Shown here: positions 2,834 to 52,559 of the stretch, in pieces
Layout: each line of letters opens with the position of its first letter
Numbering within the stretch: position 1 is the first letter of the stretch
Origin: Hydrogenothermaceae bacterium
GTDB lineage: Bacteria; Aquificota; Aquificia; Aquificales; Hydrogenothermaceae
Direction of reading: 5' to 3'
Assembly: GCA_015519975.1 (NCBI GenBank)
Contig: WIAL01000033.1
Span: 1 to 54,864, forward strand
Length of the DNA stretch: 54,864 nucleotides
Notes under the pieces: generated by a model
Database searches by the model: none
What the model saw: only the letters and a program-made list of their open reading frames with translations
Told to the model about the DNA's origin: nothing
Position numbers and translations under genes: made by a program

Positions 2834-4108
2834 ATGAAAAAAATACTTGTACTGCTTTTAATTTTTAATATAAGTTTTGCTTCTATTGATCAGCTTTTAG
2901 AAAAAGCAAGTATATCTGCAAAAGAAAAGCAGCTAAGAAAATATTTTAATATAGCCTTTGAAAGTTATAACGAAGGTTTATTTGATATAACTGAAAAAAA
3001 CTGTCTTAAATTTTTAAAAACAGCTTCTCCAAATGACAAAAACTTTAGTAAAGTTTTAGAACTTTTAGCCCATACTTATTATAGAACCAAAAACAAATGG
3101 GCTATGGAAAATTATGTTGCAAAGTATCTCTACAAGTATAAAAGATTTATAGATGAGGACAGCGCCAAAAAAATCTTTGTTTTAATCAATAACCTGTTTT
3201 TAGACTATCCTAATAAAAAGCAGTATTTTTTAAAAAGGTTTAAATATATTTGGAAATTTAAAAAAAAGCCATTTCTACTGCCAGAAGAACTTAAAAATTT
3301 TACGCCTTATGTAAATGTTTTCCCTTTTGAAAATTCAAGGCTCTTTGGAATTAATAAAATTTATTTTTCAGATAAGAACCAGACATTATACGAAGTTGGT
3401 TATAAAGTGGATATGGGATTTGATGAGCTTAGAGAAGCTAATCCACTGTTAAATCCATTTGATATAAGAAAAGGAACCGCAATTTTTTTACCGAGAAGAA
3501 GAATTATCCCTGCTATAAAGTACCAAGATAGAGAAATTTATATAAATCTAACAGAAAAGAGACTCTATTACATTTATAAAGATAAAAAAAATAAAAACAG
3601 ATATGTGATAACTTTTCCTATTGGAATCGGTACAGATGATACAAAATCACCTGTTGGAGCATTTAAAATAACTGAAAAAAGAAAAAATCCTGCGTGGTAT
3701 GTTCCCAAAAACATAAAAGAAGAAAATCCTGAACTTCCAGATGTTGTCCCTCCAGGAGAGAACAATCCTTTAGGCACCAGGGCAATGAGATTAAGCCACA
3801 GCTCTTACCTGATTCACGGAACCAGTAAGAATTTTGGAGTAGGCTTAAAAGTAAGCCACGGCTGTATCAGACTTTTTAATAGAGATGTGGAAAGGCTTTT
3901 TGAAATAGTAGATATTAATACAAAAGTGAAAATTTTCGATAAAAAAATTAAGGCCACTTATATTGGCAAAAATAAATATGTTGAATTTCATGCAAAAAAA
4001 AAGGAATTAAATGAATTAAAATTAAATATATATGCTAGTAAGGTTAATAAAAATTATCTTGAATATTTAAAAAAGGAAAGAAGGGGATTTGCTTTTCCCC
4101 TTTATTGA
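2834..4108 (+). CDS. L,D-transpeptidase (YkuD domain) with N-terminal signal peptide
   Basis: 424 residues. A short signal peptide (ILVLLLIFNISFAS) precedes a helical N-terminal region. A LysM-like stretch (about residues 190-225, ending KGTAIFLPRRR) follows, then a YkuD domain with HGTSKN and SHGCIRLFNRDV carrying the catalytic His and Cys. Such enzymes make 3-3 cross-links in peptidoglycan or anchor lipoproteins to it in the periplasm. It is convergent with a coiled-coil lipoprotein gene, a possible anchoring partner by analogy with ErfK and Lpp, which is inference. Confidence 0.9.
   Translation: MKKILVLLLIFNISFASIDQLLEKASISAKEKQLRKYFNIAFESYNEGLFDITEKNCLKFLKTASPNDKNFSKVLELLAHTYYRTKNKWAMENYVAKYLYKYKRFIDEDSAKKIFVLINNLFLDYPNKKQYFLKRFKYIWKFKKKPFLLPEELKNFTPYVNVFPFENSRLFGINKIYFSDKNQTLYEVGYKVDMGFDELREANPLLNPFDIRKGTAIFLPRRRIIPAIKYQDREIYINLTEKRLYYIYKDKKNKNRYVITFPIGIGTDDTKSPVGAFKITEKRKNPAWYVPKNIKEENPELPDVVPPGENNPLGTRAMRLSHSSYLIHGTSKNFGVGLKVSHGCIRLFNRDVERLFEIVDINTKVKIFDKKIKATYIGKNKYVEFHAKKKELNELKLNIYASKVNKNYLEYLKKERRGFAFPLY
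4081..4103. terminator. Probable bidirectional terminator between convergent genes
   Basis: Inverted repeat AAGGGGA / TCCCCTT with an 8-base loop at the end of the L,D-transpeptidase gene. The minus strand continues into a T-rich run, which suits the lipoprotein gene reading toward it. The plus strand has only a short T run. Confidence 0.45.
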
Positions 4109-7887: not shown

Positions 7888-10800
7888 TTATACAACTTCA
7901 CCTTTCCATAATAGCCCTAGCTTAAATTCTATATCTTTTTCAGGAAAAATCTTTTTCACTGCTTTTAAATAGTACTCTTTTTGTTTTTCATAAGCTTTTA
8001 TTATTTTTTCTTTTTCTTCCTTTGTTTCATATCTATTTGTTTTGTAATCCATAACAGTTACTTTTCCATCCTTTTCATAAATAACATCTATTCTACCTTC
8101 TATGTACTTTTCATTCTCATATAATGTGAATGGAAGTTCTCTAAAAATTATATTAGCTTTTTTTAATTCCTCATGAAGGGGAGAGTTTATAAATTTTTCT
8201 AAAATTTTACGGCTGTTTTCTTTTACTATATCTTTAATAGGTTCGGGTATTATTTTCTCGTGTTTTTTTATTAATAGATTTAACTGTTCTAATGATACGT
8301 TATCGAAATCTAGTTCTTCTAAAACATTATGCACAACAATGCCTGTGTAAATAGAAATGTTTTCATCTGTATTTTTTGAAAAATTAAATTTTATTTCTTC
8401 CCTTTCCTTTTCTTCTTGCATTATCTGGGATACAGATGTAAATCTTGCGTTACTAAGATGTTTTTCATAAATTTCTTTTAGTTTTTTTTCCTTTTCTAAT
8501 ATTTTGTTAAGCTTTTCTTCTATATTATCGAGATCCGAATTATCTGTTGCCTCTAAAGTCTCTTCTAAATTATTAAAATCAGCTTCCCATTTTTCTATTT
8601 CAATGAAATTCTTATTTTTTTTCAAAAACTGATCTATAAATTTTCCAAAACTTCTGCTTCCACTTTTTTTACTTTTTATAAAAATAAGCTCTTTTTCTGC
8701 CCTTGTAATTGCTACATAAAAGAGTCTTTCCCATTCTTGGCTTATGTTTTCCTTTACCTTTTCCTCATATATATTCATTTTTTCGCTTTTAGCATAAGGA
8801 AAGTTAAGGAGTATTTCATTATTATAAATATTGATATTATTTGCTTTTAGCTGGTCAGGTTCTATGGATATTAAAGGAATAATTACAACTTTATTTTGAA
8901 GACCTTTTGATTTATGCATTGTTAAAAGCTGAACTGCATTCTCATTAAATGCCTGTGCCTCTGAAACAGCTGCTGTTTCTGCAAATAATATAAAATCTCG
9001 TAAAGAAAAGTTTTCTAGTGTTTTTTGTTTTGCTATTAATTTAAACTTTTTTAAATTTTCTAAAATTTGACCGTTTTCATCAATAAGAGAAAAACTTTCA
9101 AGTAAGTCTGTATCCTGATAAATTTTATCCACAATTTCTTCAACGGAAAGATTGTATTTATTTTTTATTATTTCATTTATAGTATCTAAGTTGTCTGTTT
9201 TTAACTCATTTATGGAGAAGTTATTTTTATTTTCATAAAGTTTTTTATCTTCTAAGAGTATTAAAGGAGATTTTAAAACTTTTAAAAGCTCTATCTTCCT
9301 TTTTGGAAATTCTATTAGTTTTAAGATATTTATTAAGGTTTTTACTTCATGAGTTTCAAAAATGTTTTCACCTTCTGGTATGGAGGTTGGTATATTATAG
9401 GATTTTAAAATTTCTTCAAATGTATATAGATGATTATTTCTTCTAAAAAGAACCATTATATCTTTATAATCATACCCTTGTTGTTTTAATTTCTTTATTA
9501 AATCTGCTGTAGCTCTTGCTTCGATCTCAACTATTTCATTATTTTTTAAATTTCCAAGCTTTAAATCTATTAATTTTATTTTTCCAGATTCATTTTTATT
9601 TGCTTCTAAATTTTGTTTGAATTTGTCGTCCAAATAATTAAGGATAATACCATCTGAAAGTATTTTATTGAAAAATTCTACCAGCTTAGGCTCACTTCTA
9701 TAGTTCCTATTTAAAGCCTTATCCAAGAAAGAGTTTTCATTTAAAAAATCAAAGTATACATCTAAATCTGCATTTCTCCAGGTGTAAATACATTGTTTTG
9801 GGTCCCCAAAAACATAAATGTTATCATTTGATATTTCTTTTATTATCTGCGTCTGAATGTTATCTGTGTCCTGAAACTCGTCAATGAAAATGTACTTGAA
9901 GCTGTTCTTTATCTGCTTTTTTATGTCTGGCTCATTTTTTATCATTTTGAGAGTTTTTTCTAGAATATCATTAAAATCTAGTATTTTTTCTTCTTTTTTA
10001 ATATCATCAACAAATGAAATAAATTCAAAAACTTTATTCAAAAGTAAATTTGCGTTGTAATCCAGTAATTTGGTTTTTAACCTATAAAGTGCATTTATGA
10101 TATCTTTTTGAAGGCTTAAAAATTCTTCATCTTTCAATAAGGGTTTTATATTTTCTTTATAAAATTCCTTTTCTTCTTCTGTTAAATTTTTTGGTTTTTT
10201 GAAAATTTTAGCTTTTTCAAGTTTTATGCTGGGTAAATTTTGTAAATCCTCTGAACTTAATTTATGTAGTATAACATCTAGATTTGTTTCCCAAAATTTT
10301 TCTGCCTGCGGGAAAAGGTATGAGTATTTGTCAAAGAACTCATTAATTAAATATTCAATCTGTTTAGATAAATCATTAATATTTTTTTCTTGCTGATTAA
10401 AGTTAGTATTAGGTTTTTTAAGCTTTAATCTTTCTTTGTAAAGCTGCATAAAAATCTTTTTTAATTTTTTTTCGCTATCTGTAAAAAAAGTTATTATTTT
10501 TTCCCAGTCTTTAGGGCTTTCTTTAAAATCTTTTTCTATCCATTTTTCAAAAAATAATTTTAAAGTATAATCAAGCTGAGAATTTAAAATAGAAAATGAC
10601 CTGTCTATTCCTGAAGCGTGAGGATATTTTTTTAAAAATCTAAAAAATATGCTATGAAAAGTTCCTATATACCCGCTGTCTATAAATAAAAGCTGTTTAT
10701 GTAGTTTTATTTTTTCTTTTTTGGATACATTCGGGTCTTTTAATGCTTCTTTTATCCTCTCTGAAATTTTTAATTTTAACTCTGCTGCTGCTTTTTCTGT

Positions 10801-32609: not shown

Positions 32610-32680
32610 TAGTCTTATCCACAGAGTTAGTAAGAGGAAGAGTATTTATAAACTTTTGACAAATATTTTTTATACATTAA

Positions 32681-32706
32681 TGTATTATACATTTATGTAT
32701 AATACA
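32681..32706. promoter_or_regulatory. 26-bp palindromic operator-like site
   Basis: TGTATTATACAT, two T, ATGTATAATACA: 12-bp perfect arms. A second overlapping palindrome, TACATTAATGTA, begins just before it, and TTGACA lies at about 32656. It is upstream of the broken ATPase gene at 32717. Confidence 0.55.
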
Positions 32707-32716
32707 GGTTTGTATA

Positions 32717-32871
32717 ATGAAACATAAAGAAAGAAATCCTTTTTATTTTGGTGGAACTGTCAGCAACGAAGATTTTTGTAAAAAGAACTCCAAGAGCTTT
32801 TAAATTTATCAGAACATTCTGTAAGAATTAGTTTATATGCCTTAGGAAAAAAGAAAAAACAAAACTTTTAG
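32717..32871 (+). pseudogene. Remnant of an archaeal-type AAA ATPase
   Basis: MKHKERNPFYFGGTVSNEDF is the characteristic N-terminus of this ATPase family, but the frame ends after 28 codons. The next frame supplies KELQELLNLSEHSVRISLYALG, so the Walker region has been lost by deletion plus a frameshift. No ATP-binding motif remains. Confidence 0.6.
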
Positions 32872-33899: not shown

Positions 33900-34208
33900 C
33901 TAAAAGCGAGACATTTGTGAAATACAAAAATCAAAAGAATCCATCATATCTTCCTGATTTTCTACTTTTTGGTTAAAAGCAAATACTGCACATGGTTTTG
34001 AAATAAACAATAAAGACTGATAGGTTTCACATATCTCTTGAAGTTCTCTTTTTTTACCATAGCCTTTTTGTGATTGCTCAACAGCCCAGCGGTAACATTC
34101 TGTATTTTTACTATTTGTTGATTGTGGTAGATTTTGCAATCTGTGTGAAACCAATACAATAAATAGTAAAAGAAGCCAAAAGGAAATAAATAATTTTGCT
34201 AATTTCAT
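33900..34208 (-). CDS. Signal-anchored small protein with several Cys, 102 aa
   Basis: ATG 34208 preceded by AGGAGGTGTTAGTC. N-terminal membrane segment (LFISFWLLLLFIVLVS), then a 75-residue exposed part with five Cys (ECYRWAVEQSQKGYG, EICETYQ, KPCAVFA, DFCISQ). No family recognised. Its SD and spacer are identical to those of the SWIM gene at 34787, so the two are probably controlled together, possibly by the RNA at 51829. Confidence 0.65.
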   Translation of the reverse strand: MKLAKLFISFWLLLLFIVLVSHRLQNLPQSTNSKNTECYRWAVEQSQKGYGKKRELQEICETYQSLLFISKPCAVFAFNQKVENQEDMMDSFDFCISQMSRF

Positions 34209-34235
34209 GACTAACACCTCCTGTGAAGTAAAAGA

Positions 34236-34787: not shown

Positions 34788-34890
34788 GACTAACACCTCC
34801 GTAAAAGAATTTGCTCCTGTGGAGCTTCCTAAAAACTCCTAAAGCTTTTAGAATGCCCCACAGGAGCTTTGGAAGTGTTAGCCTTTTACT
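34788..34890 (-). promoter_or_regulatory. Two-state structured leader (possible RNA switch) of the SWIM gene
   Basis: On the minus strand a 13-base element (34883-34871, GGCTAACACTTCC) can pair along its whole length, with two G-U pairs, with the SD/spacer GGAGGTGTTAGTC (34800-34788). A 10-bp perfect hairpin (GCTCCTGTGG / CCACAGGAGC) lies inside. A second pairing, GTAAAAG with CTTTTAC (34889-34883 with 34807-34801), crosses the first, so the two exclude each other: one hides the ribosome site, the other frees it. No known riboswitch class recognised. Confidence 0.6.
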
Positions 34891-44450: not shown

Positions 44451-44675
44451 ATGACCATAATACATGAAAAAATAAGCGTAGTATATAAAAATAATACAAA
44501 ATCAACAAAATATCAATGTCTTTTCCTTTGTGCCTCCTTCTGGGTGAAGGAGGTATATTCATGTATAAGTATATACTTTCATGCTTGCATTCTGAATGGG
44601 GTTCGCTTTTTTTCGAGTATGAAAAATGGTTCAATTCGAAAACGACGGAGGAAGCTGTTGAAATCATCATTTTGA
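44451..44675 (+). CDS. Possible leader ORF of the replication operon
   Basis: 74 codons starting 8 bases after the looped AAGGAG (MTIIHEKISVVYKNN...). It overlaps the next gene by 115 bases in another frame and has no family. Its translation would run through the hairpin at 44533-44553 and could free that gene's ribosome site, like leader peptides in plasmid copy-number control. The C-terminal half is probably without function of its own. Confidence 0.45.
   Translation: MTIIHEKISVVYKNNTKSTKYQCLFLCASFWVKEVYSCISIYFHACILNGVRFFSSMKNGSIRKRRRKLLKSSF
44533..44553 (+). promoter_or_regulatory. SD-sequestering hairpin
   Basis: CCTCCTTC, loop TGGGT, GAAGGAGG: an 8-bp perfect stem that buries the only strong ribosome site of the gene at 44561 (7 bases from its ATG). 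Confidence 0.75.
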
Positions 44676-45211
44676 CTCTCCGAGATACTCTTCCGCAAAG
44701 CCATGAAATTCAAGGTTCGGAACTGTCTGAGAAAGATATGAAGAAAAACTGGCTTTTTGAAATCGTTCAAAAACAGGAATTCATTGGGCTTGCAAAAAAA
44801 GAAGCGCAACAAAGAAAAAAGAAAAATCCTATGAAAGAAAATTTCGACATCGCAATAGAAGCAATATCTGCAACACTCCGGAACGTCTACAAAGACATTG
44901 ATTGGCGGGGGAGCAAGGGAAAACGGACATACGCAAAACCTGAGTTAATTTCGCTCATATCATCCCTTCCTCTGTCATTTGAAAATGAGAAAGTGTCCCG
45001 CAAAACCTTGAAAATGCTGGGTTTCATTGATGCCCAAAAAGAAACAAATCTCGACAATTTCGCTGAAATATATCAAAAACACAAACAAAATGCACAAAAG
45101 ACCTTTTTAGTTTCGAATCTCTTTGAAAAACAAAGGAAAAAAAGAAGAAAGAAATCTTCCGGCCCTTCATCTTCAAGTGCTCCAGCAGCTCAGCAATTAT
45201 CCTTGATTTGA
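44561..45211 (+). CDS. Replication-module protein, 216 aa, unknown family
   Basis: Start ATG 44561 (MYKYILSCLHSEWGSLFF) with GAAGGAGG in a hairpin. Soluble; the C-terminal tail is basic and then Ser/Pro/Ala-rich (KKRRKKSSGPSSSS). Base composition is visibly richer in G and C than the neighbours, which hints at a different origin. Position between a leader with copy-control features and the iteron-bearing gene suggests a role in replication initiation or its control. No family recognised. Confidence 0.6.
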   Translation: MYKYILSCLHSEWGSLFFEYEKWFNSKTTEEAVEIIILTLRDTLPQSHEIQGSELSEKDMKKNWLFEIVQKQEFIGLAKKEAQQRKKKNPMKENFDIAIEAISATLRNVYKDIDWRGSKGKRTYAKPELISLISSLPLSFENEKVSRKTLKMLGFIDAQKETNLDNFAEIYQKHKQNAQKTFLVSNLFEKQRKKRRKKSSGPSSSSAPAAQQLSLI

Positions 45212-45228
45212 TTGGGAGGTGAGGGGTG

Positions 45229-46497
45229 ATGATATCCAAAGAAGAAATGATTGCAGAGATAGAAAAAGAGTACAGGAGAAGGAAAAAAAGTGCAAAAACA
45301 AATGAAGAACGAAAGAGAATACGAGAAATAAGAAACGAGGCAATATCGCTTGTTTCATCCCCAAATTTTGCGGATTTTGCAAAAAATGAAATACTCAGGG
45401 CAGTGATGGGTCGCATTGAGAAAAATGAAAATACAGAAAAATTTTATAAATCCTATAATAAAAACAAAACACAACTCCCTATCCTCCACATAATATCCAG
45501 GAACAATCCATATCTATTGACCCCCGAAATATTACAAAAAAACGATGAATTTAAAATAAACTCATACTGGAGCAGTTTTATTCTTCAAGCAACTGAAGAT
45601 GTAGAAATTTTTGAACCTTACGATATTAAAAACTTACTTGCTATTTTATCTGTAAAGTCAGCATATATAGAACACTTAAAAAAAGAAAAATTATCAGATG
45701 AGGAAATATTAAAAATTTTAGTAATTAATGGATTTATCATTCCTTTACCTATGGTTGCTGAAATTAGGGAAATTTCAAAGAGAAAAGAAAACTATCAAAG
45801 AATTATAAACAGTATAGACAAAGCTCAGAAAATACAAATTAAAGGTAAATTATCTGTCGATATAAAAGGAGAACCTTTAGAAGTTAAAAAAGCATTTTCT
45901 TTTATTAGTGAATACGAAGAAATTACTTACAAGAATAAAAAAGCTTTGAATATTAAACTATCTCCCACAGTAGCGAGATTACTAATTGAAAAAAAAGGCA
46001 GATATTACAATAGAAAATTAATCAATAATATTCCGGATAATCTTTTACCTCTTTACTTTACATTAGACAATTTCAGACTTAATCAAAACATAAAAGAAAA
46101 AATAATAAGTAAGAAAGCCCTTATAGAAAATTCGAGACTCATATACGGAAAAACAGCAAAAGAAAGACCGGACAAGGTAGAAAAATATCTTATAGAAAAA
46201 ATAAACAAACTCAAAAATGGAATAGCTATCGATAAAAATACCAAAATTAAAATGATAAAAGATTGGGAAGAAGTAGAAATGTATAATGGAGAAAAAGGGA
46301 TAAAGATAATATATGAGTCCAAAACCCTACACTCTGAATCCGAAAACCCTACACTCTCAATCCGAAAACCCTACACTGCCAATCCAAAAACCCTACACTC
46401 TCAATCCAAAAATGCACTTCTAACTCTTGAAAATCAACGATTTCATTTAGTCTTAATATTCTTAATAGCCTTAAGGCTATTATTCAGGTCTTTTTGA
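45229..46497 (+). CDS. Putative replication initiator (Rep-like) carrying iterons in its 3' end
   Basis: About 422 residues; start ATG 45229 with GGGAGG 9 bases upstream (a GTG one codon earlier is possible). N-terminal part is charged and helical; residues about 190-365 contain two segments (FSFISEYEEITYKNKKALNIKLS and VEKYLIEKINKLKNGIAIDK) that look like paired winged helices, as in iteron-binding Rep proteins, by appearance only. The C-terminal ~45 residues are encoded by the iterons and look like a by-product. Confidence 0.55.
   Translation: MISKEEMIAEIEKEYRRRKKSAKTNEERKRIREIRNEAISLVSSPNFADFAKNEILRAVMGRIEKNENTEKFYKSYNKNKTQLPILHIISRNNPYLLTPEILQKNDEFKINSYWSSFILQATEDVEIFEPYDIKNLLAILSVKSAYIEHLKKEKLSDEEILKILVINGFIIPLPMVAEIREISKRKENYQRIINSIDKAQKIQIKGKLSVDIKGEPLEVKKAFSFISEYEEITYKNKKALNIKLSPTVARLLIEKKGRYYNRKLINNIPDNLLPLYFTLDNFRLNQNIKEKIISKKALIENSRLIYGKTAKERPDKVEKYLIEKINKLKNGIAIDKNTKIKMIKDWEEVEMYNGEKGIKIIYESKTLHSESENPTLSIRKPYTANPKTLHSQSKNALLTLENQRFHLVLIFLIALRLLFRSF
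46321..46408 (+). repeat. Four 22-bp iterons (likely replication origin)
   Basis: AAAACCCTACACTCT recurs at 46321, 46343, 46365 (ending GC for CT) and 46387, exactly 22 bases apart, followed each time by SAATCC-type spacer. A degenerate fifth unit begins at 46409. Exact two-turn spacing of direct repeats next to a Rep-like gene is the hallmark of an iteron origin. All lie within the coding frame. Confidence 0.85.
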
Positions 46498-46537: not shown

Positions 46538-48508
46538 ATGGAAACCTTAAACGAAAAAATCCAATTATCTCATGGATTAATTTTGAAATTATTAGATAGA
46601 GCAGGTTGGAGTTATAAGAAAATCGGGAATGTATATATGGGGGCTTGTCCGGTTTGCAAAAATGGGACCAGAACTCCAAATACAAAATTTAATTTAGATA
46701 CTAATTCTTTTAAGTGTTTTAACAAAAGTTGCGGAGTTTCCGGAGGATTAAAAGATATAGCTGAAAATTTAGGTGTAGATTTTAGAGAATTTTTAATAGA
46801 TGAAGGAATAATAGAAGATAAAAAATTACCTGAAAAAGATAAGCAATATCAAGGCTTTAAAAGGGAGAAAATGCAAGATAAAGGGATAACTACCAATGGA
46901 GAAAAAAAAGAAAGAAAAATAGAAATAGATTTAGAGAAAATATCAACAGCTGTCTTAGATGAAGAAACTAAAAATTATCTTTTATCAAGATATATAAACC
47001 CTACAACTGTAAACGGTTATGTAAGAATGGTAAGACCTAAACAAGATAAGTCTTTTAGTTATTTAGAAAACTATTTCAAAGAAGGCTATAAATTACTTAT
47101 TCCAGCTTTTGACCTTGAAGGAAATTTAAAATCTGTAAAGATAAGGAATGTAAAAGGAGATAAAGAACCAAAAGTTAAAAATCTAAAAGGATTAAGGCAG
47201 TCAATTATTGGAATAGATAAGCTGAAAAAAAATATAAATGATTATGTGATAGTAGTTGAAGGAGAAATTGACTATTTAACAGGCGTTTATTTATCACCAG
47301 GAGATAATTTTATTGCCATACCATCTTCTACATATATCTTTGCAGTTGAAGAAAAAGAGGTTTTACCTGAAAAGGTTATTTTATTACTGGATAATGATGA
47401 TGCAGGTAAATCTGCGACCGAAAGAATAGCAACAGATTTAAAAAAAGAAGGAAAAAAAGTTTATATAGGTCAATATCCGGAAGGAATAAAAGATTTAAAT
47501 GAGCTTTTAGCGAAACATAAAGGTGATACAGATGAAACTTTAGAGGAACTACAAGAGATTTTATTTATGGCATATCAAAATCCTTTTACTCTTACTAAAA
47601 CACTAAAAGAAACAGGAAAATCACTAATAGAAAGATTAAGAAACAGAGTTGAAGAAGCTGAAAAAGAAGGGAAAGAAAGACCTGAACCATTAGCATTTAA
47701 AACAGGTTTAGAGTTTCTTGATGAGTTGTTAGATGGCGGGTTAAGAAGGGGATTATATGCAATAGCAGGACAACCAGCAATTGGTAAAACTTCTTTTGTT
47801 TTAGCACTTGCAAAGCACTTAGCAGAAAATAAAAATAATGCTTTAATTTTCAGTTTAGAAATGACAGACGAAGATTTATTAATTCAGATTTTGAGCTGGC
47901 TTACAGGAATATCCAAAAGAAAAATATTAGATGAAACAATTAATAGATTTGAGCTTGAAGAAATAGAAGAAGCATTAAACAATTCTATTTTTAACCATAT
48001 TTTTATCGATACCGAAAGCAGAACTGTAGAAGATATTGAAAGCAAGGTAATAGATACTTTAAACGATATAAACAATAGTCGTTTAATTGCTTTTGTAGAT
48101 TATCTTCAGCAAATCAAACCAAGCAAGGAGTTTTTAAAAAGTGATTATAGACTGCAGATGAAAGATATTAGTTATAAGCTGAAAGAAATAGCTAATAAGT
48201 ATAATATCCCTCTGTTCGTTATATCTTCTACCCAAAGAGATGGATATAATGCAAAAGACAAAAAGTCTGAACCAAACTATATAGCAATGTTTAAAGAAAG
48301 TGGAGATATAGAATATAGTCTTTATGCAGGATATTATTTAGATTATCCATCTGAAAAAGAACTTGAAGGATTCACAAAAGCAGAATGGGAACTTCCTATA
48401 AAGATAGTGAAAGTAAAATCCAGATTTGGAAGTGTTAAGGACGAAAGACATAAACATATTTCTAAAGTTGCTGTATTGAATTTTAAAAATGGAGAACTAA
48501 TATGTTAA
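46538..48508 (+). CDS. Bifunctional primase-helicase (TOPRIM + DnaB-like)
   Basis: 656 residues. N-terminal zinc finger (CPVCKNGTRTPN ... CFNKSC, residues about 35-70), TOPRIM motifs YVIVVEGEIDYL and LLLDNDDAG, then a RecA-fold helicase with Walker A AGQPAIGKTS, SLEMTDEDLL, and Walker B LIAFVDYLQQIKP. Layout as in T7 gp4 or Twinkle. It should prime and unwind at the element's origin. GGAGG lies 8 bases before the ATG. Confidence 0.93.
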   Translation: METLNEKIQLSHGLILKLLDRAGWSYKKIGNVYMGACPVCKNGTRTPNTKFNLDTNSFKCFNKSCGVSGGLKDIAENLGVDFREFLIDEGIIEDKKLPEKDKQYQGFKREKMQDKGITTNGEKKERKIEIDLEKISTAVLDEETKNYLLSRYINPTTVNGYVRMVRPKQDKSFSYLENYFKEGYKLLIPAFDLEGNLKSVKIRNVKGDKEPKVKNLKGLRQSIIGIDKLKKNINDYVIVVEGEIDYLTGVYLSPGDNFIAIPSSTYIFAVEEKEVLPEKVILLLDNDDAGKSATERIATDLKKEGKKVYIGQYPEGIKDLNELLAKHKGDTDETLEELQEILFMAYQNPFTLTKTLKETGKSLIERLRNRVEEAEKEGKERPEPLAFKTGLEFLDELLDGGLRRGLYAIAGQPAIGKTSFVLALAKHLAENKNNALIFSLEMTDEDLLIQILSWLTGISKRKILDETINRFELEEIEEALNNSIFNHIFIDTESRTVEDIESKVIDTLNDINNSRLIAFVDYLQQIKPSKEFLKSDYRLQMKDISYKLKEIANKYNIPLFVISSTQRDGYNAKDKKSEPNYIAMFKESGDIEYSLYAGYYLDYPSEKELEGFTKAEWELPIKIVKVKSRFGSVKDERHKHISKVAVLNFKNGELIC

Positions 48509-49780: not shown

Positions 49781-49789
49781 TTATATCTA

Positions 49790-49857
49790 TCCCCAATCCA
49801 ATCCAACCCAAACCAAACCAATCCAATCCAAACCAAAACCTAAACCAATCCAAATCC
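49790..49857 (-). repeat. G-tract array (13 GG tracts on the minus strand)
   Basis: On the plus strand 13 runs of CC (one CCCC, one CCC) separated by 2-4 A/T bases, built from CCAAT and CCAAA units. On the minus strand this reads GG-ATT-GG-TTT-GG and so on, which could form two-tier G-quadruplexes. It lies directly upstream of the cassette promoter. Confidence 0.75.
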
Positions 49858-49876
49858 ATTGACTAAAAATAAAACC

Positions 49877-50627: not shown

Positions 50628-50645
50628 TTACGTTATATATGTATA
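50628..50645 (+). promoter_or_regulatory. Element promoter-like motif before the sliding clamp gene
   Basis: TTACGTTATATATGTATA on the plus strand, then GGAGG about 13 bases on and the ATG at 50672. Confidence 0.65.
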
Positions 50646-50671
50646 AGAAAGCATTTTTGGAGGATTTAGTT

Positions 50672-51805
50672 ATGGAAAAGCTTTTAAGCAAAAAATCATT
50701 TTCAATCAAAAGGAAGAAACTCCTTACAGCTTTAAGAAAAATCTCAAATGCATCAGAAAGAAAATCTGCATTTCCTATCCTTTCATCTGTTAAAATTTCA
50801 AATAAGAATGGAATACTGGAGCTTACAGCTACAGACCTTGAAGTTCAGGCAAGCGTTCAGATAAAAATGGATATATATGCAGATTTTGAATTATGCCTTC
50901 CAATTACTAAACTGATAAACATTGTATCTCTTCTTCCGGATGAAAATATAAACTTCGAAATAGATGATAAAGCTAGAATAAAATCCGGAAAATCAAAATT
51001 TACATTACCTTTTTATAATCCCGAAGATTTTCCTTTATTAAGCGATGAAGATTTAGGTTTTTATTCATTTGAAATAAATGAAAAAACTTTAAAAAAAGCA
51101 ATAAAAAATATTCAATATGCAGTTTCTAAGGAAGAACATAGATACTCCCTTGAAGGCATATTCATTAAAAGCTATGAAAATAAAGTTGATTTTGTAGGAA
51201 GTGATGGACATAGATTATCCCTTTACAGCATTGAAACAGATATAGAAAATGAAATAAGTACTATTATCCCTGCAAAAGCAGTATCAGAGCTCTTAAAGCT
51301 TATAGATGATGATACAAGCGTAAAAGTTTATGCAAATCCTTCTTATGTAATATTTAAATCAGATAACTGGAAACTTATAACAAGACAACTTGAAGGAAGC
51401 TATATAGATTATAAAACCTTAATTGAAAACAATCTAGAAAAGTTAAAAGAAGGAGCGGTATTTAAAGCAGATAGAAACAAACTTTTAGAAATAATTCAAA
51501 GGGTTTCTATTATTTCGGCCACGAATAGCAATATTAGGCCTTTATATATAAAGCTAAAATATAACAGTCTAATAGTTTCAGCAAAAGGAGAAGATGGAGC
51601 TTTTTCAGAAGAAGATTTAAATGTAGAAGTAATTAATCCTGCAGAACCGGAACTAAAAGTTAATGCGGCATATCTTATCGAAGCATTAAAAAACCTTGAA
51701 GATGAAAAAATAGAATTTTCTTTCCTGGATGAGAATACCCCAGTAATAATAACTGCGGAAAAAGAAAAAGGATTTCTTGGATTAATTATGCCAATGAATA
51801 TGTGA
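50672..51805 (+). CDS. dnaN: DNA polymerase III beta subunit (sliding clamp), element-encoded
   Basis: 377 residues from ATG 50672 with GGAGG 8 bases upstream. Three clamp domains visible: FPILSSVKISNKNGILELTATDLEV, FVGSDGHRLSLYSI in the second, and the C-terminal LGLIMPMNM, which matches the usual MPM.L ending. It tethers polymerase to DNA. A clamp gene within an element, apart from dnaA/gyrB, is unusual and points to its own replisome part. Flanked by two copies of the TTACGTT motif. Confidence 0.93.
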   Translation: MEKLLSKKSFSIKRKKLLTALRKISNASERKSAFPILSSVKISNKNGILELTATDLEVQASVQIKMDIYADFELCLPITKLINIVSLLPDENINFEIDDKARIKSGKSKFTLPFYNPEDFPLLSDEDLGFYSFEINEKTLKKAIKNIQYAVSKEEHRYSLEGIFIKSYENKVDFVGSDGHRLSLYSIETDIENEISTIIPAKAVSELLKLIDDDTSVKVYANPSYVIFKSDNWKLITRQLEGSYIDYKTLIENNLEKLKEGAVFKADRNKLLEIIQRVSIISATNSNIRPLYIKLKYNSLIVSAKGEDGAFSEEDLNVEVINPAEPELKVNAAYLIEALKNLEDEKIEFSFLDENTPVIITAEKEKGFLGLIMPMNM

Positions 51806-51810
51806 AAACC

Positions 51811-51826
51811 TTACGTTATATATATA
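51811..51826 (+). promoter_or_regulatory. Element promoter-like motif before the anti-SD RNA
   Basis: TTACGTTATATATATA, beginning 5 bases after the clamp stop, with no gene but a terminator behind it. Confidence 0.6.
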
Positions 51827-51828
51827 GA

Positions 51829-51903
51829 ACGTTGGCCTTCATAGGAAACACCTCCTCTCCCCTAACCTCCCTTTGACAGGGTGCAACGCCCTGTCCTTTT
51901 TAT
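51829..51903 (+). ncRNA. Predicted ~75-nt small RNA with 16S-like anti-SD sequence
   Basis: Bounded by the motif at 51811-51826 and the terminator at 51875. Its unstructured middle holds AACACCTCCTC (51847-51857) and CCTCCC (51866-51871). CACCTCCT equals the anti-Shine-Dalgarno core of 16S rRNA. The AACACCTCCT stretch is complementary over 10 bases to the ribosome site of the gene at 34208 and over 9 to that at 34787. No open frame with a start is present. Predicted, not shown to be transcribed. Confidence 0.5.
51875..51903 (+). terminator. Intrinsic terminator
   Basis: GACAGGG / CCCTGTC with a 7-base loop, followed by CTTTTTATT. Serves the clamp gene and/or the predicted small RNA. Confidence 0.85.
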
Positions 51904-51990: not shown

Positions 51991-52230
51991 ATGATTACAA
52001 TTAACAAGTGGGGAAATTCACAAGGAATAAGAATACCTAAAAGTTATCTAAAAAGATTAGGGTTAGAAATAGGGGATGAAGTTGAGATTAGGATTGAAGA
52101 TGAAAAACTTATAATTGTTCCTATAAAGAGAAAAAGAAAGCCCAAATTGGACATAAATAAATTATTTAAAGAAAAATATAAAGAAAATGAAGAATATAAC
52201 TGGGGAAAAGCAGGAAAAGAGATATGGTAG
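51991..52230 (+). CDS. mazE: MazE-like (AbrB-fold) antitoxin
   Basis: 79 residues from ATG 51991 (AGGAG 8 bases upstream). INKWGNSQGIRIPKSYLKRLGLEIGDEVEI is the SpoVT/AbrB swapped-hairpin DNA-binding domain. The C-terminal ~35 residues would bind the toxin. Overlaps mazF by 7 bases. Confidence 0.9.
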   Translation: MITINKWGNSQGIRIPKSYLKRLGLEIGDEVEIRIEDEKLIIVPIKRKRKPKLDINKLFKEKYKENEEYNWGKAGKEIW

Positions 52231-52559
52231 ATTACATTCCAAAGAAAGGCGATATAATTCATCTTAACTTTGACCCTTCATTAGGACATGAGCAAAAAGG
52301 AAATAGATATGCTGTTGTAGTAAGCCATTATATTTTTAATAAGAATACCGGAATGTGTTATGCAATTCCTATTACTTCAAAATGTAAAGGTTATCCTACT
52401 CAGGTTCAGATAAAAGCAGGGAAAATAAAAGGATGTGCTTTAATAGACCAGTTGAAAAGCATAGACTATAGAGCAAGACAAGTGGTTTTCAGAGGAGAAC
52501 TTCCCAAAAATCAGTTAGAAAGAATCCTTGATATACTTGAAACTATAATCTTTTCTTGA
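52224..52559 (+). CDS. mazF: MazF-like mRNA endonuclease toxin
   Basis: 111 residues. IPKKGDIIHLNFDPSLGHEQKGNRYAVVVS (with the catalytic Arg region), PITSKCKG, GCALIDQLKSIDYRAR. Typical MazF, cutting mRNA at short sequences. Apparently intact and paired with MazE. Confidence 0.92.
   Translation: MVDYIPKKGDIIHLNFDPSLGHEQKGNRYAVVVSHYIFNKNTGMCYAIPITSKCKGYPTQVQIKAGKIKGCALIDQLKSIDYRARQVVFRGELPKNQLERILDILETIIFS

Follow-up and report, generated by a model that had tools for sequence, protein, structure and literature searches.

Small C-rich RNAs that act on Shine-Dalgarno (SD) sites are established, with IsrR and FsrA as examples (PMC9410917). AT-rich genomes have few G-rich stretches, the SD sites among them, and there the C-rich motifs of small RNAs (sRNAs) discriminate SD regions well (PMC9410917). 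RNAs of the IsrR/FsrA/RsaE class, from Firmicutes, have single-stranded, C-rich regions complementary to the SD, an AT-rich genome, their own promoter and an intrinsic terminator (PMC9410917), and the RNA predicted here would resemble them in all of these respects. It differs from them in being carried by a mobile element, in having no stable stem-loop besides the terminator and in having candidate targets only. The likeness to IsrR and FsrA is functional only, with no known kinship in sequence or synteny.

The cuckoo/alpha-r14 RNAs (NfeR1, CcsR) also expose an unpaired anti-SD motif in a short RNA (PMC10746234). However, their motif is CCUCCUCCC, whereas the RNA described here contains CACCUCCUCUCCCC and ACCUCCC, has no hairpin series and comes from a locus that is not alphaproteobacterial. 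Membership in this family was rejected, since CCUCCUCCC is absent from positions 51827-51901 and the hairpin series is missing. In the DapZ/MicL type, an RNA in the 3' region of a coding gene has its own promoter at the end of that gene (PMC9438474). The present locus has a similar arrangement, but with the promoter-like motif just after, not inside, the upstream gene, and with a different seed. RNAs that act by anti-SD pairing are already known, and the RNA predicted here is a new candidate of this kind. Small RNAs of this lineage and its mobile elements appear to have received little study, as our literature search found nothing on them.

Genomic setting

The analyzed stretch of 54,864 nucleotides, hereafter the window, is the entire contig C23 of a draft genome of 1.92 Mb. 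The host is an AT-rich bacterium (30% GC genome) and, judging by its genome size, GC content and genes, probably a thermophile of the Aquificota type. The right-hand portion of the window, from approximately 31 kb through the contig end, is a mobile element. It encodes a primase-helicase (46538-48508) with relatives in three other genomes at 68–86% identity, a Fic protein, a HEPN/nucleotidyltransferase pair and an HD-domain protein with a weak match to TraI_2. Other parts of the element have integrated counterparts in the genomes G016, G018 and others, where they adjoin the same host genes. A second element, which carries a T4SS coupling protein, is located on contig C3 of the same genome. Near the island edge, at 32653-32794, the DNA is very similar in several related genomes and contains palindromic repeats of the TACATTAATGTA type. 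A low-complexity, C-rich and G-poor tract with CCAAT/CCAAAC-type units at 49785-49860, with no long genes around it, is perhaps part of an origin.

The locus of interest is located between two genes on the plus strand. Upstream is an element-borne DNA polymerase III beta clamp gene (50639..51805; Pfam E-value 4e-33), which is preceded by its own copy of the motif described below, at 50628. The product is approximately 33% identical to the chromosomal clamp, and a search for relatives returned solely chromosomal-type clamps at about 31–38% identity and none in viral or named genome contigs. Downstream is a mazE/mazF-like toxin-antitoxin pair (51991..52559; Pfam MazE 6.7e-16, PemK 4.6e-23), preceded by its own promoter-like region with the palindrome GTATATACTTATATATAC. 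A search of plasmid and phage collections gave a single short match to mazF.

The gene at 45229, which adjoins the primase-helicase gene, encodes a putative replication initiator. Its product has no Pfam match. Related elements encode a 644-aa protein ahead of the primase, and the 45229 product shares 82% identity with the C-terminal half of that protein. The putative replication protein of the related elements is a single open reading frame (ORF) of 644–658 aa. In the window (44561-46497) the conserved C-terminal half is a gene of its own, preceded by an unrelated ORF of 216 aa, and the junction is a mosaic one. Iteron-like repeats of 22 bp, AAAACCCTACACTCTCAATCCG, lie within the 3' end of the putative initiator gene (46321-46430) and are kept in related elements.

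An element-specific promoter-like motif

The clamp ORF ends at 51805 and the heptamer TTACGTT begins at 51811. This heptamer is part of the promoter-like motif AACCTTACGTTATATATATA (51807..51826, plus strand), which scored 22.7 bits against a matrix built without this copy. The motif family, AACCTTACGTT-TATATATA, is specific to the element and consists of TTACGTT (in one case TTCCGTT) followed by an AT-rich, TATATA-like stretch. About 9–10 clear copies are present in the element of the window, including the one at 51811, which is among the two with the highest scores, and another three in contig C3. The best match in a scan of 766 kb of host DNA reached 16.8 bits, as compared to up to 23 bits for the element sites. 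Sites were recorded from 31406 to 51811 in the window, at 2775, 4685 and 6699 of locus L010 and in loci L145, L149, L150, L181, L182, L187 and L190.

At all the other copies a start codon follows, typically within about 20–35 bases and nearly always with an SD. The copy at 51811 leads instead to GAACGTTGGCCTTCATAGGAAACACCTCCTCTCCCCTAACCTCCCTTT, after which come a hairpin of 9 bp and its T-run. Cognate copies, TTMCGTTTATATA, are located upstream of homologous genes in related elements, and in those from other genera TTCCGTTTATATA or TTACGTATATATA takes the equivalent position. The form TTMCGTT-TATATA is common to related mobile elements from several genera of the family, where SD and start codon follow at a near-constant distance. 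Because the motif is element-specific, precedes genes and has cognates before the homologous genes of related elements, it appears to be the element family's own transcription signal, and it is presumably a promoter, not an operator. The named genomes gave 79 matches to the promoter pattern, which were taken as chance matches because they were scattered and none obviously came from this lineage.

In the related elements of genomes G004 and G022, motif copies also face regions without a long gene, which suggests that gene-less transcripts from the motif may be a habit of the element family. In addition, related elements contain two motif copies separated by 220 bp of DNA that has no long gene (minus strand; L181 6437-6217, L186 1854-1634, L187 1784-1564). 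The interval, which includes a hairpin TGTGTAGAT...ATCTACACA and the palindrome AAAATTCCGTATATACGGAATTTT, is possibly a second small RNA.

Anatomy of the predicted small RNA gene

The predicted small RNA has a length of about 70–75 nt (51827..51901, plus strand), with the start placed near 51827-51830 from the spacing of the motif to other leaders, and the end set by the terminator. No SD-led ORF was found between the clamp gene and mazE at 51991. The middle of the RNA is a C-rich, G-poor tract with 15 C and a single G in 28 nt (51845..51872), the most C-rich tract of the window. Stretches of 28 nt with at least 15 C and at most one G occur once in the window, at this tract, and five times in 766 kb of host DNA, both strands included. 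A second C-rich, G-poor tract of the host genome, at 1028-1055 of locus L102 (around 21030 of contig C43), is apparently intergenic and without an open frame.

The tract is followed by an intrinsic terminator (51875..51901), a hairpin at 51875-51895 with a 9-bp stem including one G-U pair and a T-run at 51897-51901. It is the sole match in the 54.9-kb window, on both strands, to the criteria of at least 8 pairs, at least 5 GC pairs and a T tail. The same criteria gave no match in four shuffled windows and 11 matches in 766 kb of host DNA. The stem is predicted at -14.7 kcal/mol on the plus strand and -11.9 kcal/mol on the other strand, where the G-U pair becomes a mismatch, and the plus strand is thus favoured as the transcribed one. 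According to the predicted fold, most of the tract is open at 37 °C and all of it at 70 °C, where the terminator hairpin alone stays folded. The fold z-score of the RNA is -2.9.

The initial annotation had proposed a motif copy directly after the clamp stop codon, a gene-free stretch and an intrinsic terminator, and all of these were confirmed at their coordinates and go beyond chance. With an almost optimal start signal, the extreme tract and the best stop signal all within 95 bases, a small-RNA gene is by far the simplest reading. We consider it quite likely, from sequence features, that the small RNA exists. The locus is intergenic and combines an intrinsic terminator with a motif that would act as its own promoter, as is generally expected of trans-acting sRNAs.

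Anti-SD cores and comparison with known RNAs

The tract contains two anti-SD cores. The first, CACCTCCT (51849..51856, plus strand), is exactly identical to the core of the 16S rRNA 3' tail, GGATCACCTCCTTTA, of a gene that ends in GGCTGGATCACCTCCTTTA and was taken from a genome of the same genus, since this assembly is without its own 16S gene. The second, ACCTCCC, is located at 51865-51871 on the plus strand. In composition-matched shuffles CACCTCCT was obtained with P 0.007–0.012, and given the C content of the tract, two CCTCC cores were obtained with P 0.03 in mononucleotide and 0.11 in dinucleotide shuffles. The anti-SD character thus modestly exceeds what composition gives, and is not overwhelming, because shuffling yields CACCTCCT in about 1% and two CCTCC cores in 3–11% of cases. 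The rare feature is the C-rich composition itself. Motif score, tract and terminator give good support to an independent small RNA that exposes a 16S-like anti-SD segment, in line with the initial annotation.

A search of the window against Rfam at gathering score identified five tRNAs alone, and permissive thresholds likewise assigned the RNA to no family. The covariance model of SorX (RF02784) showed a weak likeness over the C-rich tract and the terminator (E-value 0.044 in a 301-base search). The score of 18.3 bits falls short of the gathering score, 46.6, and membership was rejected. SorX also differs from the RNA predicted here in arising by processing of an mRNA 3' end (PMC9438474).

DNA searches of 41 genomes of the family and 136 of the phylum revealed no homologues of the RNA, and short C-rich partial matches at most. 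No clamp/sRNA locus is present on the contigs that carry the replication module in relatives. No relative was found in a viral collection using the pattern of promoter plus anti-SD and AACACCTCCTCTCCCC; one match was dismissed because it looks like a phage SD read in antisense, and the others because their contigs are unrelated and have neither the promoter motif nor the terminator. In related elements, a gene for a 483-aa protein with no Pfam match has the leader CACCTCCC...GGAGGTG(TACT)ATG, with a loop that differs among the copies (L149 1940-1993, L186 ~4010-4060, L187 ~3930-3980 and L190 ~8770-8820, minus). This leader hairpin could bury the gene's own SD in cis.

Candidate targets

Duplex energies of the RNA were computed against 850 start regions, 50 from the two elements and 800 from the host. 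The start codons were called mechanically from ORF length and SD strength, and individual start regions may be wrong. The energies track SD strength and correlate with those of the 16S tail (0.64). Start regions of the elements and of the host were no different in mean energy (p = 0.60), and this check of all 850 regions thus showed no preference for the element.

The initial annotation had singled out the genes at 34208 and 34787 as targets. Both complementary stretches are real, with 10 contiguous pairs to AGGAGGTGTT before the 34208 gene (34213..34222, minus strand) and 9 to GGAGGTGTT before the 34787 gene (34792..34800, minus strand). However, runs of at least 9 contiguous pairs are found in 13 of the 800 host start regions (9–12 pairs), as compared to 2 of the 50 in the elements. 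Host start regions match or exceed the pairing of the two genes, whose specificity was rejected against this background. A match that extends past the generic SD does not support them as targets either, since the TT extension is also common among host genes. Directly upstream of the 34787 gene, a long imperfect inverted repeat, GCTCCTGTGGGG...GCTCCACAGGAGC, is present at 34800-34880 (minus strand).

The start region of the 45229 gene, GGGAGGTGAGGGGTG-ATG (45214..45231, plus strand), has a predicted duplex energy of -32.0 kcal/mol. It ranks second among the 850 regions at 37 °C, and first when the top-ranking region (29717) is discarded because its ORF overlaps a tRNA; at 70 °C it is second, behind a host gene. 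The pairing segment of the RNA is CCCCTAACCTCCC (51859..51871, plus strand), complementary at 12 of 13 bases, and the predicted duplex joins GGGAGGT-g-AGGGG to CCCCU-a-ACCUCCC. Against shuffled RNAs, the p-value was 0.04 for 45229 and 0.09 for the best among all element start regions. These statistics are only suggestive, and 45229 may be regarded as the leading candidate target. The target site is not conserved in related elements, because the N-terminal half of the replication protein differs there. A replication initiator, which the 45229 product putatively is, would be a natural target for an sRNA of the element.

Alternative interpretations

The alternative that survives best is that the locus gives a small transcript or just the 3' UTR of the clamp mRNA, where the C-rich stretch aids termination only and insulates mazEF, with no target in trans. 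The aid would be Rho-type or a pause-favouring, C-rich and G-poor bubble ahead of the intrinsic terminator. The tract does directly precede the terminator, the clamp's own promoter reads toward it, mazEF has a separate promoter-like region with a palindrome, and a target enrichment specific to the element is absent. However, a separate near-perfect promoter motif after the clamp stop codon would be pointless for a mere terminator, and the strongest host terminators found, in an unsystematic comparison, show no need of a C-rich tract. We hold this alternative to be possible, though not probable.

Action in cis or on the neighbouring gene is unlikely. As the 3' tail of the clamp mRNA, the sequence would then pair with the clamp SD TTTTTGGAGGATTTAG and limit clamp synthesis, in line with the known autoregulating 3'-end sRNAs OppZ and CarZ (PMC9438474). 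The clamp start region contains GGAGG and gives a predicted duplex of -16.2 kcal/mol, but it ranks only 258 of 850.

There is a still smaller chance that the opposite strand is the meaningful one, with AGGAGGTG-TTTCCT-ATG opening a tiny ORF (MKANVLYI) as a leader peptide or the remnant of a gene start. The SD and ATG are well spaced on the minus strand, and half of the window's CCTCC sites (30 of 60) oppose a GGAGG with a start codon at the usual distance, so that CCTCC is often merely the back of a start region. On the other hand, the ORF has just 8 codons and ends inside the promoter motif, and the minus strand has no promoter motif, a hairpin that pairs worse and no U-run.

It is very improbable that the element uses its own transcription signal to produce an RNA that imitates the 16S 3' tail and would globally sequester SDs and so shift host translation. 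Such a mimic would perhaps be linked to the neighbouring mazEF, because some MazF toxins elsewhere remove the ribosomal anti-SD (PMC12274833). Least probable of all is an mRNA or attenuator for a 14-codon peptide, MAFIGNTSSPLTSL. Its frame runs uninterrupted from TTG 51831 to a TGA at the base of the terminator stem, but it has no SD, starts a few bases from the predicted 5' end and is of a kind expected by itself in C-rich sequence.

Proposed function and implications

We conclude that 51811-51901 probably encodes a trans-acting, C-rich sRNA with an action like that of IsrR/FsrA or the cuckoo RNAs, with no demonstrated kinship to either. The element's own promoter motif would start a transcript of about 70 nt right behind the clamp gene, and the intrinsic terminator would end it. 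The single-stranded, C-rich middle would pair with G-rich SD regions, and the RNA would in this way repress the translation of several mRNAs in trans. With the replication gene 45229 as the leading target, the outcome may be copy or replication control. We assign a probability of roughly 0.5 to translational repression in trans as the main action of the RNA.

Should the RNA prove real, the mobile element would carry an anti-SD sRNA close to its replication genes and under its private promoter. It would also offer a simple case for target choice by a C-rich RNA, in a 30% GC genome that has few G-rich stretches besides the SDs. The element-specific promoter family may outweigh the RNA in importance.
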